Positions 6,593 through 10,181 of a stretch of 12,127 nucleotides of DNA are shown in pieces (the stretch's first letter is position 1; every line of letters begins with the position of its first letter). The position numbers and the translations under genes are program-made. Source of the stretch: Caulobacter sp. Lineage in GTDB: Bacteria; Pseudomonadota; Alphaproteobacteria; Caulobacterales; Caulobacteraceae. The DNA lies in NCBI GenBank assembly GCA_014378155.1, contig JACMOF010000252.1, positions 1 through 12,127 of the forward strand, written 5' to 3'. The notes under the pieces were generated by a model, which worked only from the letters and a program-made list of their open reading frames with translations, did no database searches and was not told the origin of the DNA.

Positions 6593-8425
6593 CTATTCTT
6601 CCTTGACGCGACGCTTGCGGAACGACGGGTTCAGCACCTGCTTGCGCAGGCGGATGTTCTTGGGCGTCACTTCCACCAGTTCGTCTTCCTCGATGTAGGC
6701 GATGGCCTGCTCGAGGGTCATGCGGCGCGGCGGGGTCAGGCGGACGGCTTCATCCTTGCCCGAGGCGCGGATGTTGTTCAGTTGCTTGGCCTTCATCGGG
6801 TTGACGTCCATGTCATCACCCCGGGCGTTTTCGCCGATGATCATGCCCAGATAGGTCTTCTCGCCGGCGCCCACGAACATGACGCCGCGATCTTCCAGGT
6901 TCCACAGCGCGAAGGCGGCGGTTTCCCCGTCCGAGTTGGAGATCAGCACGCCCTTGCGCTGTTGGTCGAGCGGGCCCTTGTAGGGCTCATAGTGGCTGAA
7001 CACGCGGTTCAGCACGCCCGAACCGCGGGTGTCGGTCAGGAACTCGCCCTGATAGCCGATCAGCGAACGCGACGGGGCGATCAGCGAGATGCGGGTCTTG
7101 CCGGCGCCGGACGGACCCATGTCCTTCAGCTCGGCTTTGCGCTGCGACAGCTTCTCGATGACGATGCCCGAGAACTCGTCGTCGACGTCGATCATGACGT
7201 CTTCCATCGGTTCCAGGCGCTTACCGGTTTCCGGGTCGATCTGGTACACCACGCGCGGACGGCTGATCGACACTTCGAAGCCTTCGCGACGCATGTTCTC
7301 GATCAGCACGCCCAGTTGCAGTTCGCCGCGGCCGGCCACCTCATAGGCGTCGCCCTCGGTGGACTCGGTGACCTTGATGGCCACGTTGGATTCGGCTTCC
7401 CGCAGCAGGCGGTCGCGGATGACGCGGCTTTGGACCTTGTCGCCTTCCTTGCCGGCCAGAGGGCTGTCATTGACCGAGACGCTCATCGAGATGGTCGGCG
7501 GATCAATCGGTTGGGCGGGCAGGGCCTCGGTGACGTCCAGGGCGCACAGGGTGTCGGCCACCGTGGCCTTCGACATGCCGGCGATGGCGATGATGTCGCC
7601 CGCTTCGGCTTCGTCAACCGGCTGGCGCCTGAGGCCGCGGAAGGCCAGCACCTTGGTGATGCGGCCGCGCTCGACTTCCTTGCCGTCACGGTCCAGGGCG
7701 TGGATGGCCATGCCGGGAACGGCCTTGCCGCTCTCGATGCGGCCGGTCAGCAGGCGGCCCAGGAACGGGTCGGCTTCGATCAGCACGTTCAGGATCTGAA
7801 ACGGCGCGTCGACCTTGGCGATCTGCTTGGGTTCCGGCACGTGGCGGACGATCAGGTCGAACAGCGGGGCCAGGTTATCGTTGGGGACGTTCAGGTCCAT
7901 CGTCGCCCAGCCGGCGCGGCCCGAGGCGTAGATGTGCGGGAAGTCCAGCTGCTCGTCCGTCGCGCCGATGGCGGCGAACAGGTCGAACGCGGCGTTGTGG
8001 ACCTTGTCCGGATCGGCGTGGGCGCGGTCGACCTTGTTGATGCAGAGGATCGGGCGCAGGCCCATCTTCAGCGCCTTGGTCAGCACGAACTTGGTTTGCG
8101 GCATGACGCCTTCCTCGGCGTCGACCAGCAGGACGCAGCCGTCCACCATGCCCAGGATGCGTTCGACTTCGCCGCCGAAGTCGGCGTGGCCGGGGGTGTC
8201 GATGATGTTGATGCGGGTTTCCCCGGCTTCACCGTTCCACAGGACGCTGGTGCACTTGGCCAGAATCGTAATGCCGCGTTCGCGCTCCTGGTCATTGGAG
8301 TCCATGGCGCGTTCGGTCGTCGCCTCATTGGCGCGGAACACGCCAGACTGGGCGAGAAGCTGATCGACGAGAGTGGTCTTGCCATGATCGACGTGCGCGA
8401 TGATGGCGATGTTTCGCATGGACAT
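6593..8425 (-). CDS. typA: Ribosome-associated translational GTPase TypA/BipA
   Basis: This 610-aa protein has the usual family length of about 605-615. It is a translation-factor GTPase related to EF-G that binds the ribosome and aids assembly and stress or low-temperature growth. G motifs are intact: AHVDHGKT (10-17), RERGITI (48-54), DTPGH (76-80), NKVD (130-133) and ASG later. Following are a beta-barrel domain II, EF-G-like domains III and V, and the BipA-specific C-terminal region with LMxxx-type [20 protein letters not shown], then RASGKDEA and [14 protein letters not shown]. The start [13 protein letters not shown] is at the family N-terminus; ATG 8419 is an equally good alternative. 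No Shine-Dalgarno is visible. A strong terminator follows. The 560-aa opposite-strand frame across it is a codon-bias shadow. Confidence 0.97.
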
Positions 8426-8747
8426 GGAGAAGGCGGGCTTTCGGGGAGAAGAGAAGTGGTTTGACGCTGTGCGCGTCAGGCGCGCGGCTTTTACGCGACT
8501 GCGCGACGTTTATCCACCCCACCTCTGCGCAAGGCTTTGACGTGGAAACCGGTGTCAGCCGCAAACCCCTTAATTTTATGGGGTTTGCGAAAGTTACGAG
8601 TGGATGTCGTTTCTCTCGCAACCAATTGTGCACTGCAGCATTGCGCCGAAATATGGCGAAGCTTGGCGATCGGCGTCCGCTAAACCTTATGTTACAAAGG
8701 ATTTCTAAGCTTTAGTGCGACAAAAAGTGACAGCGTTGCCGAACATT
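8426..8747. other. Gene-free stretch upstream of typA and the small RNA
   Basis: No plausible protein gene lies here. It should hold the typA promoter and leader (minus strand) and the upstream control region of the small RNA (plus strand). It contains a 10-bp palindrome (8560-8589) and one near-consensus DnaA box, TTATCCACC, at 8510-8518. It is more AT-rich from about 8570 onward than the flanking genes. A single DnaA-like box is not evidence of an origin. Confidence 0.6.
8560..8589. repeat. 10-bp palindrome with AT-only loop upstream of typA
   Basis: CGCAAACCCC (8560-8569) and GGGGTTTGCG (8580-8589) are exact reverse complements around the 10-nt loop TTAATTTTAT. It lies 135 bp upstream of the typA start codon and about 200 bp before the small RNA. 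No T-run follows on either strand, so it is not an intrinsic terminator. It could be a regulator site or a hairpin in a long typA leader. Confidence 0.6.
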
Positions 8748-8751
8748 TTGC

Positions 8752-8780
8752 TTGATGCATTTCGCACCGCACCCTATAAG
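8752..8780 (+). promoter_or_regulatory. Sigma-70-type promoter of the small RNA
   Basis: TTGATG (8752-8757) and TATAAG (8775-8780) are separated by 17 bp and match the housekeeping -35/-10 pattern. They place the transcription start at about 8786-8788, just before the first RNA hairpin. Confidence 0.65.
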
Positions 8781-8786
8781 CAACCT

Positions 8787-8868
8787 GTGAGGCGGCCTCG
8801 CCGCCTCTGCCCTTCCTGGGCGTTTCCTCCCTAATGAACTGCCCGGCTTTCGAGCCGGGCTTTTTTTT
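8787..8868 (+). ncRNA. Small RNA of the suhB / MmgR (alpha-r8) family
   Basis: This is an RNA of about 82 nt with no reading frame. In order it has a hairpin GAGGCGG-loop-CCGCCTC (8789-8807), a small hairpin GCCC-TTCCT-GGGC (8809-8821), the single-stranded core TTTCCTCCCT (8823-8832), and an intrinsic terminator hairpin with eight Ts (8841-8868). The 10-nt UUUCCUCCCU core between a hairpin and the terminator is the signature I recall for the alphaproteobacterial alpha-r8 family, listed in Rfam as suhB. That family includes Sinorhizobium MmgR, which limits polyhydroxybutyrate accumulation. The core resembles an anti-Shine-Dalgarno, so pairing with ribosome sites of target mRNAs (with Hfq) is the likely mode. 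The promoter call and the length agree with the family. Its targets in this organism are unknown. Confidence 0.85.
8841..8868 (+). terminator. Strong intrinsic terminator of the small RNA
   Basis: An 8-bp stem GCCCGGCT/AGCCGGGC closes on a TTCG tetraloop and is followed by eight consecutive Ts. No protein gene ends before it on the plus strand, so it marks the end of a non-coding transcript. Confidence 0.95.
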
Positions 8869-8890
8869 GGTCTGTGCCTTGGGCGGCTAA

Positions 8891-8953
8891 AAACCCTCTC
8901 TCTTTGAGTGAGGGAGGGGTCCGCCGCCCCAGGCGGTGGGAGGGTGAGAGGTT
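8891..8953 (+). repeat. REP-like repeat, copy A (63 bp)
   Basis: The unit begins AAACCCTCTCTCTTTGAG and ends GGGAGGGTGAGAGGTT. It can fold into two hairpins: CCTCTCTC/GAGTGAGG around TTT, with one mismatch, and CCGCC/GGCGG. An inverted partner lies at 9100-9162 with identical ends. It starts 22 bp after the small-RNA terminator. Confidence 0.8.
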
Positions 8954-9099
8954 TCACGGCCAACCGGAAAAGCTCGATACCTTTATTTGATCAACCCGTG
9001 CCGGGCGCGGGATCTCAAGGCAGTCCCAGTATCCATACGCCGGCGCGGGTAGGCGCGTTGTGCAAGGCATCCAGGCGGCGCCTTGGTCTGAGAGGGTGT
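8954..9099. other. 146-bp spacer inside the inverted repeat pair
   Basis: No gene is visible here. It contains a short inverted repeat CAAGGC/GCCTTG (9063-9068, 9080-9085) and, at the right edge, TGAGAGG (9089-9095) pairing with CCTCTCA (9102-9108) across the boundary of copy B. It holds no transposase or tRNA-like structure. Confidence 0.5.
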
Positions 9100-9162
9100 A
9101 ACCTCTCACCCTCCCATCGCTGCGCGATGGGCCTCTCTCTCTCTCTCAAAGAGAGAGGATTT
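9100..9162 (-). repeat. REP-like repeat, copy B (63 bp, inverted)
   Basis: Read on the minus strand it matches copy A in length and at both ends (AAAtCCTCTCTCTTTGAG and GGGAGGGTGAGAGGTT). Its first hairpin is a perfect CTCTCTC/GAGAGAG around TTT. The second stem is CCCATCGC/GCGATGGG, different in sequence from copy A yet still fully paired. Its outer end touches the stop codon of the N-formylglutamate amidohydrolase gene. Confidence 0.8.
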
Positions 9163-10082
9163 CAGAGCAACTCAGCCCAATCCGTCGCGGCCAACTGCCG
9201 GGTCACCGTCTCGATGTCCGCCTTCAAGCCCGCCAGACCCTCGGTCGGCTCGCGCGTGGTCTCGTTCATATAGAGCGCGCGATTGATCTCGACCTGGATG
9301 GCGTGGGTGCGTCGGGCGGGGCGGCCGTAGTGCGCGGTGGTATAGCCGCCGGCATAGGGCGCGTTGCGGGCGACGCGATAGCCCAGCGTCTCCAGCGCCC
9401 TTTCAATCAGCCCGGTCATCTTGGGCGAGCAGGCCGCGCCGAAGCGATCGCCCAGCACGATGTCGCACGGGCCGCCGCCGCGCGCCCGGTGGCCGCGCGC
9501 CGCCGCCGCCGGCATGGAGTGCCAATCGACCAGCACCGCCAGGCCGTGGGTGTTGCGCGCCTGGGCCAGCAGGCGGTCCAGCGCGTCGTGATAGGGGCGG
9601 TGGGCGGTGTCGATCCTGAGCTTGGCCTCGATGAAGGTGAGCTTGCGGGCATAGATCGGGCGGCCTTCGCCGGCCACCCGGGCAATCGTCCCCAGTCCGG
9701 CCGCCACCCGCGCCGTGCGGCCTTGGGCGAAGTCGGGCAGTTCGTCCTCGAACATCGCGGGATCCAATTCCCAGGCGTCGCGGTTGCAATCGACATAGGC
9801 CCGCGCCAGCCGGGCCCGGATCACATTGGCCCCCAGGGCCGGCGCGCCGCCGATCAGGTCATCGACGAAAGCGTCCTCGGAGCCGCGCAGCTCGCGAGCC
9901 TCCAGCCGGGCGGCGGCCATCATCTCGGGCGGATAGAGCTTTCCCGAGTGGGGCGAGGCGAAGACCAGGGGCGTCGGCGGCGGCAGACCCTCGGGCGCGG
10001 CGCGCAACACTTCGAAGGCCGGCGAAAAGCCATGCTCCGCCGTCGCCGGCGTTTTCGAAGCGATCTGCTCCCATGCGGTCAT
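9162..10082 (-). CDS. N-formylglutamate amidohydrolase family protein
   Basis: The protein is 306 aa from ATG 10082. The frame runs to TTG 10124, but the ATG is preferred; neither has a strong ribosome site. It is a soluble zinc-type amidohydrolase of the FGase family. Characteristic motifs appear in order: FASPHSG (41-47), RAYVDCNRD (94-102), the HRPYH metal/substrate motif (161-165), VDWHSMP (185-191), GDRFG (211-215), YAGGYTTAHYG (243-253) and QVEINRALYM (263-272). In histidine degradation this enzyme (HutG type) turns N-formyl-L-glutamate into glutamate and formate. No other hut genes are in view, so the true substrate may be a related N-formyl compound. It diverges from cpdR across a 177-bp gap, and a repeat element directly abuts its stop codon. 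Lower-frame shadows exist on both strands. Confidence 0.9.
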   Translation of the reverse strand: MTAWEQIASKTPATAEHGFSPAFEVLRAAPEGLPPPTPLVFASPHSGKLYPPEMMAAARLEARELRGSEDAFVDDLIGGAPALGANVIRARLARAYVDCNRDAWELDPAMFEDELPDFAQGRTARVAAGLGTIARVAGEGRPIYARKLTFIEAKLRIDTAHRPYHDALDRLLAQARNTHGLAVLVDWHSMPAAAARGHRARGGGPCDIVLGDRFGAACSPKMTGLIERALETLGYRVARNAPYAGGYTTAHYGRPARRTHAIQVEINRALYMNETTREPTEGLAGLKADIETVTRQLAATDWAELL

Positions 10083-10181
10083 GGACTTATTGTCGCGGCC
10101 CTGCGCGCCGGGGTCAAACGACAAGGCCGCAGCGTTATAGAGACAGGACCGGGCGCCCAGGCTTTAACTGTGGACGGTCGG

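Follow-up and report, generated by a model that had tools for sequence, protein, structure and literature searches.

A probable sisA small RNA gene of a Caulobacter species, with a PhaR-type promoter box and a gene for the sponge RNA CrfA in the same genome

Overview

The stretch analyzed here, 12,127 nucleotides of a Caulobacter sp. contig (hereafter the window), contains what is probably the sisA gene of this species, encoding a trans-acting and probably Hfq-bound small RNA, the level of which would be set by PhaR at the promoter and then by CrfA after transcription. The RNA itself is ordinary: it extends a known family by one member, and its ortholog has been characterized. Family membership, the locus, the presence of CrfA and PhaR genes and the conservation of the promoter box were computed here; repression of targets, sponging and the binding of PhaR to the mmgR promoter come from Caulobacter crescentus and Sinorhizobium meliloti. 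The CrfA half of the scheme has been published for C. crescentus (PMC12559287), and the PhaR/polyhydroxybutyrate (PHB) half draws on promoter anatomy and on S. meliloti.

The small RNA gene and its family

The 82-nt unit comprises a promoter, two hairpins, a 10-nt core and an intrinsic terminator (Table 1). All these elements were checked letter by letter, and the -35 and -10 elements with a 17-bp spacer, the two hairpins, the exact core and the tetraloop terminator with eight T proved to be where the initial annotation had placed them. The predicted transcript start is G 8787. The core is present in a single copy in the window, both strands counted. As the RNA 10-mer UUUCCUCCCU, it is single-stranded, stands after a weak hairpin and is followed by the intrinsic terminator, which is the arrangement of the family.

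Table 1. Features of the small RNA locus (positions in the window)
Feature	Position	Strand	Basis
typA (divergent neighbor)	6593..8425	-	TypA/BipA and GTP_EFTU Pfam domains
Distal PhaR-type box CAATTGTGCACTGCAGCATTG	8623..8643	+	identical at 19/21 letters to the site printed in PMC12542648 that PhaR binds at S. meliloti mmgR
-35 element TTGATG	8752..8757	+	sequence
Proximal PhaR-type box, CGCACCGCA at 8763-8771, in the -35/-10 spacer	8760..8774	+	pattern YGCRNYGCR
-10 element TATAAG	8775..8780	+	sequence; 17-bp spacer from -35
SisA/alpha-r8 (suhB, mmgR) small RNA	8787..8868	+	RF00519 match, fold z, pair counts; both ends inferred
5' hairpin GAGGCGGC-CTC-GCCGCCTC	8789..8807	+	MFE fold; pair counts
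Weak second hairpin TGCCC-TTCCT-GGGCG	8808..8822	+	MFE fold
Anti-Shine-Dalgarno core TTTCCTCCCT (RNA nt 37-46)	8823..8832	+	exact match
Intrinsic terminator GCCCGGCT-TTCG-AGCCGGGC	stem-loop 8841-8860, eight T 8861-8868	+	terminator scan, sequence
N-formylglutamate amidohydrolase gene (FGase; convergent neighbor, marker of the SisA locus)	9162..10124	-	PF05013, E 1.1e-72

The assignment to the alpha-r8/suhB/MmgR family, proposed earlier from the letters, was borne out by a scan with the Rfam suhB/mmgR covariance model (RF00519), which matched 8802-8875 over its full length (model positions 1-77) with 58.6 bits against a gathering score of 41 (E 3.3e-10). SorX, anti-hemB, SorY and NsiR1 of Rfam have a C/U-rich stretch and a terminator in common with the window RNA; however, all four scored below their own gathering cut-offs at the RNA gene. 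The 82-mer folds at -41.2 kcal/mol compared with -25.4 +/- 2.95 in 200 shuffles, none of which was as good (z -5.35). A generic promoter scan at its thresholds yielded no promoters (0.3 expected), as it demands T at the sixth position of the -10 element, which is G here, and a terminator scan yielded one, that of the RNA gene (1.2 expected in shuffles). Since these counts are near the shuffle expectation, chance could account for the promoter and terminator matches taken by themselves, and the case for the RNA gene rests on the covariance-model match and on conservation.

Conservation was assessed in the FGase loci of relatives. Among 80 such loci, 61 contain the exact core on the strand opposite to FGase, within 2.5 kb in 58, and 19 lack it; with the three loci having the core beyond 2.5 kb dropped, the window and 58 relatives make up 59 FGase-linked loci. 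In their alignment, columns 8751-8754 (CTTG) of the -35 region are 91-100% conserved and columns 8755-8757 just 38-49%, and the TA at 8775-8776 of the -10 element is conserved at 100% and 94%. For covariation, the window was aligned with 30 relatives chosen from the 58 usable ones for their diversity (31 sequences, 30 distinct). Standard pairs occupy 98.3% of the cells over the 21 predicted pairs in the 30 distinct sequences, versus 34.9-50.3% when the structure is slid. Changes on both sides were found in 7 of the 21 pairs versus 0-2 when slid (shuffle mean 4.2, with 1 of 500 shuffles as high), and the number of pair types was not beyond shuffles (54 of 500 as high). Five of the seven pairs of the main terminator stem show both-side changes; the 5' hairpin is paired in 97.9% of cells and has one such pair; all five pairs of the weak second hairpin are invariant, which speaks neither for nor against pairing. 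Invariance of the core among the relatives is partly built in, as the loci were chosen on the exact core and relatives are non-independent samples. A silent relic with a core preserved by chance is scarcely credible, given that promoter, structure and terminator are intact and accompanied by compensatory changes across relatives.

The assembly (3.83 Mb, 598 contigs, 85% complete) contains three suhB copies over the cut-off, the third of which has a shortened core, TTTCCTCCTA. The fourth-ranked match (L004, 28.6 bits) is under the cut-off and has no core; it was excluded from the copy count together with 11 further matches under the cut-off. Of 149 Caulobacteraceae genomes, 144 have suhB over the cut-off.

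Locus organization and orthology to SisA

Contrary to the initial annotation, which had the RNA gene downstream-opposed to typA, typA (minus strand) is divergent from it, and the convergent neighbor is FGase, which that annotation does not mention. The FGase of the window is 82-86% identical to its seven nearest records, all of which are labeled Caulobacter, and this places the organism in Caulobacter. In 45 of the 59 loci, the window included, a divergent typA begins at a distance of 244-411 nt from the core. No typA match was found in the other 14, of which L092 ends too soon to tell and seven are labeled Brevundimonas (L079, also Brevundimonas, has typA). The proximity of the divergent typA in these 45 loci, and the convergent orientation of FGase, could suggest that the unit acts in cis on one of the two mRNAs; this is very unlikely, as the RNA is kept in the 14 loci without a typA match and the core is kept in copies with no FGase nearby.

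Two repeats were observed in the flanking regions. A near-perfect inverted repeat (CGCAAACCCCTTAA / TTATGGGGTTTGCG) lies at 8560-8589 between typA and sisA; 23 aligned loci of the Caulobacter type retain it in part. The interval from the RNA terminator to FGase holds an inverted pair of 67-nt GA-rich repeats (8891-8957 and 9096-9162, 76% complementary); as these contain GGGAGGG/AGGGAGG, RNA transcribed from them might in principle base-pair with the core.

The role of such an RNA in a Caulobacter-like cell, considered open at first, has meanwhile been described. C. crescentus has four alpha-R8 siblings, SisA-D, and the FGase-linked one is SisA, reported to be Hfq-bound and to act through the 10-mer as a repressor of several mRNAs, those of TonB receptors among them; in carbon starvation it is removed by the sponge CrfA (PMC12559287, 2025). 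Hfq binding of R0014 (= SisA) is also reported in PMC11005374. The earlier suggestion that the C/U-rich core covers Shine-Dalgarno sites is supported. With 8787 taken as nucleotide 1, the published SisA residues G33, C40 and C45 correspond to G8819, C8826 and C8831, and the footprint G33-C45 to 8819-8831; the fit of these numbers supports the start at 8787. From the FGase linkage and the nucleotide numbering, the window RNA gene is likely the ortholog of C. crescentus SisA (CCNA_R0014). The two share the FGase-linked locus, the 10-mer at fitting numbers, the preceding weak hairpin and the terminator, and CrfA is present in the genome; the likeness was judged by locus, numbering and features. 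They differ in that C. crescentus has four siblings, whereas three copies are over the cut-off in this 85% complete assembly. With MmgR (alpha-r8) of S. meliloti the window RNA shares the Rfam suhB family, the core and a PhaR-type promoter box, but MmgR is the sole copy there (PMC12559287), as against three suhB copies here.

Promoter box and PhaR

The spacer of the window promoter contains the pattern YGCRNYGCR, which is present between -35 and -10 in 57 of the 59 FGase-linked genes, compared with 8.4% of equal windows further upstream; the two genes without it are those of L098 (Desertibaculum) and L113 (an Acidocella MAG). Linkage was examined in 41 distinct copies, consisting of the three of the genome, the best 30 suhB loci of the family and further copies recovered in the searches for core complements, with identical upstream stretches counted once and FGase linkage taken as FGase within a roughly 3-kb locus. 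The box was found in all 20 FGase-linked copies and in 3 of the 21 unlinked ones (Fisher p 7.5e-9, kinship ignored). Of the 45 loci with a divergent typA, 44 have a second box between -165 and -200 relative to the core, as have 3 of the 14 without a typA match; as this distal box goes with typA linkage, it may belong to typA, and it could serve typA, SisA or both.

A PhaR gene (PF07879, E 2.1e-30) is present in the genome and adjoins a frame that by eye resembles a thiolase, so that a PhaR-type promoter site and a PhaR gene are found together, as in a PhaR regulon. In S. meliloti, PhaR recognizes WNWD2NYGCRNYGCRNH2WNW, occupies CAATTGTGCACCGCAGCATTA in the mmgR promoter and acts as a repressor of mmgR (PMC12542648); in Bradyrhizobium the site is TGCRNYGCASMA (PMC6201568). 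The pattern TTGTGCRNYGCA has eight sites in the genome versus two for the reversed pattern. One of the eight is situated some 190 nt upstream of a frame read by eye as pyruvate phosphate dikinase (ppdK), but inside the preceding frame; ppdK is a PhaR target in S. meliloti (PMC12542648). The other sites in the genome have no evident link to PhaR-controlled genes.

On our prediction, the PHB-sensing repressor PhaR occupies the box in the -35/-10 spacer of sisA. Alternatively, the RNA could be SisA, with a box that belongs to the core promoter or is recognized by a different factor, and its level in Caulobacter would then be set by CrfA alone. SisA is reported as near-constitutive in C. crescentus, where the sisA-D promoters showed no shared motif (PMC12559287), and the window box begins with C, not T. 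Nevertheless, the same pattern is PhaR-bound at the S. meliloti mmgR promoter (PMC12542648), the box tracks FGase linkage, and the site at the PhaR-repressed gene phaZ1 of B. diazoefficiens begins with CGC. We therefore regard control without PhaR as unlikely, though it is the most serious of the alternatives, and prefer PhaR at the promoter. The main text of PMC12559287 does not describe a PhaR-type box of the kind present in the window promoter and does not mention PhaR or AniA; no SisA-PhaR connection was found in a literature search of limited scope.

The sponge RNA CrfA

The genome contains a CrfA gene (RF01527, 161.2 bits, from C214:10420). The element was found through a 9-mer complement of the core not preceded by A and was later confirmed by Rfam, the model start coinciding exactly with the base set beforehand from the published CrfA footprint G49-C63. 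A conserved intergenic complement of the core is present in five of six Caulobacter genomes, and the sixth (G134) also has a CrfA match. Two other routes were abandoned: a search of 61 genomes for complements of the core adjoining a downstream T-run gave matches in three, which read as self-complementary terminator hairpins, and exact 10-mer complements in five relatives were mostly the suhB genes themselves.

A model built from five copies and applied with stricter filters gave matches in 130 of 149 Caulobacteraceae genomes, which represent 20 of 22 genera and include all 23 genomes of the genus of the window; many of the 19 genomes with no match under these filters belong to one genus (g22). 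An alignment of 29 of the best 30 loci from the 130 genomes gave, after removal of one spurious minus-strand match, 28 distinct rows. In these best-scoring sequences all eight pairs of the pairing hairpin GGCGTTTC-GGGGAG-GAAACGCC are invariant, and 27 of the 38 other pairs show changes on both sides. The lower-scoring CrfA genes L271 and L272 keep the loop and have one G-U in the stem of the pairing hairpin, which is therefore not invariant family-wide. Pairing with the invariant Sis core appears to be the most economical reason for frozen hairpin letters in an otherwise covarying RNA.

SisA and CrfA contain a perfect 14-nt complement, allowing 14 contiguous base pairs. Their duplex energy is modestly below that with shuffled CrfA (-71.0 versus -59.2 +/- 5.2; 6 of 500 as low) in a model that leaves accessibility out. 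The 18-letter hairpin pattern, which misses diverged sponges, was found in 5 of 385 genomes of the class, namely in all four Caulobacteraceae and in one of the 381 others. This single match outside the family (L275) aligns with the CrfA model just locally, over 18 positions, has no CrfA context and was not accepted as CrfA. The distribution of the hairpin pattern in the class sample is another point of difference from MmgR of S. meliloti, although diverged sponges elsewhere would be missed.

Candidate targets

The genome has four copies of the perfect complement of the core, AGGGAGGAAA: in two suhB genes, inside one open frame and at the ribosome site of a GH3 gene, which it covers as AGGGAGGAAAAGAATG (10 nt). 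The TonB receptor gene divergent from the GH3 gene (G000:C72; L121, L131, L132) has a core-complementary ribosome site too, AGGGAGGGATGAAGAATG, and this pair of genes provides candidate SisA targets. In another genome (G130, L157), two bases separate AGGGAGGAAA from the ATG of what reads by eye as a TonB receptor gene.

The earlier suggestion that several genes of the window are conceivable targets is weak, the longest complement to the core region being 7 nt versus the perfect 10-nt match elsewhere in the genome. Upstream of 11 starts of 10 window genes, taken as in the ORF list and some probably wrong, Watson-Crick complements of 7 nt and 6 nt were each found once and of 4-5 nt in the other nine; the 7-nt one is TTAGGGA, before a gene for a transglycosylase-associated protein (3701). 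As a conserved target hppA was rejected: its counterpart in C. crescentus is a SisA target (PMC12559287), but in the genome of the window the upstream region has a match of at most 8 nt with wobble pairs and no strong site. AGGGAGG-N2-12-ATG sites number 44 in the genome versus 13 for the reversed pattern, and among 30 of the 44 read for frames many have no real frame. No target enrichment is claimed, because ribosome sites enrich the AGGGAGG motif anyway and many sites lack a real frame.

A mainly MmgR-like action on phasin and PHB genes, with transporter repression as a side effect, would agree with the PhaR-type promoter box and with the link between MmgR and PHB in S. meliloti (PMC12542648). 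It seems improbable, as published SisA targets include several TonB receptors (PMC12559287) and the only perfect start-codon complement in the genome belongs to the GH3 gene beside a TonB receptor gene. Repression of uptake and sugar-degradation genes is the preferred reading.

Promoters of the sibling copies

The third suhB copy of the genome (L003:690-760, G000:C492) and L217 (G096, another Caulobacter) carry a perfect palindrome, TGACAACGTTGTCA, that begins 56 nt upstream of the core and overlies the likely promoter; a one-letter variant stands between the GH3 and TonB receptor genes (L121). A second motif, TGTTAGCGCTATCA, is conserved near -55 of the core in suhB copies L018, L019, L023 and L031, with variants in L026, L033 and L038, and a third, GTGAACATAGATCAC, occurs in another sibling class (L159, L171, L173, L176). 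To our eye TGTTAGCGCTATCA and TGACAACGTTGTCA resemble what we take to be LacI-type operators, and GTGAACATAGATCAC presumably a CRP-like one. For XylR, a 14-bp operator is described in PMC7198004.

Tentatively, with somewhat less than even confidence, the Caulobacteraceae suhB siblings may be seen as a bank of promoter-coded carbon sensors built on one core: the FGase-linked copy would read PHB via PhaR, others would read particular sugars or global carbon via LacI-type or CRP-like operators, and CrfA, with a nearly frozen hairpin that would pair with the common core, would wipe out all of them at once under starvation.

Proposed regulation and its meaning

In the proposed scheme the single-stranded core would cover the ribosome-binding sites of transporter and sugar-degradation mRNAs. 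Under carbon surplus, stored PHB would titrate PhaR off its box, so that SisA would rise and close the uptake genes. Starvation-induced CrfA would pair with the SisA core through its G/A-rich hairpin, and SisA would be removed. The CrfA loop GGGGAG may act as a toehold, after which SisA would displace the 5' arm of CrfA, whose letters, GGCGUUUC, are the same in SisA. We infer that the whole SisA/PhaR/CrfA scheme operates in the strain of the window.

The Sis-CrfA pair appears to occur widely in Caulobacteraceae and to be maintained by a constraint on pairing; since RF01527 is already in Rfam, the range of CrfA may in part have been known before. What our analysis would add to the known biology is a candidate upstream input for SisA, namely PhaR and, through it, the PHB store; the main text of PMC12559287 does not name this input.
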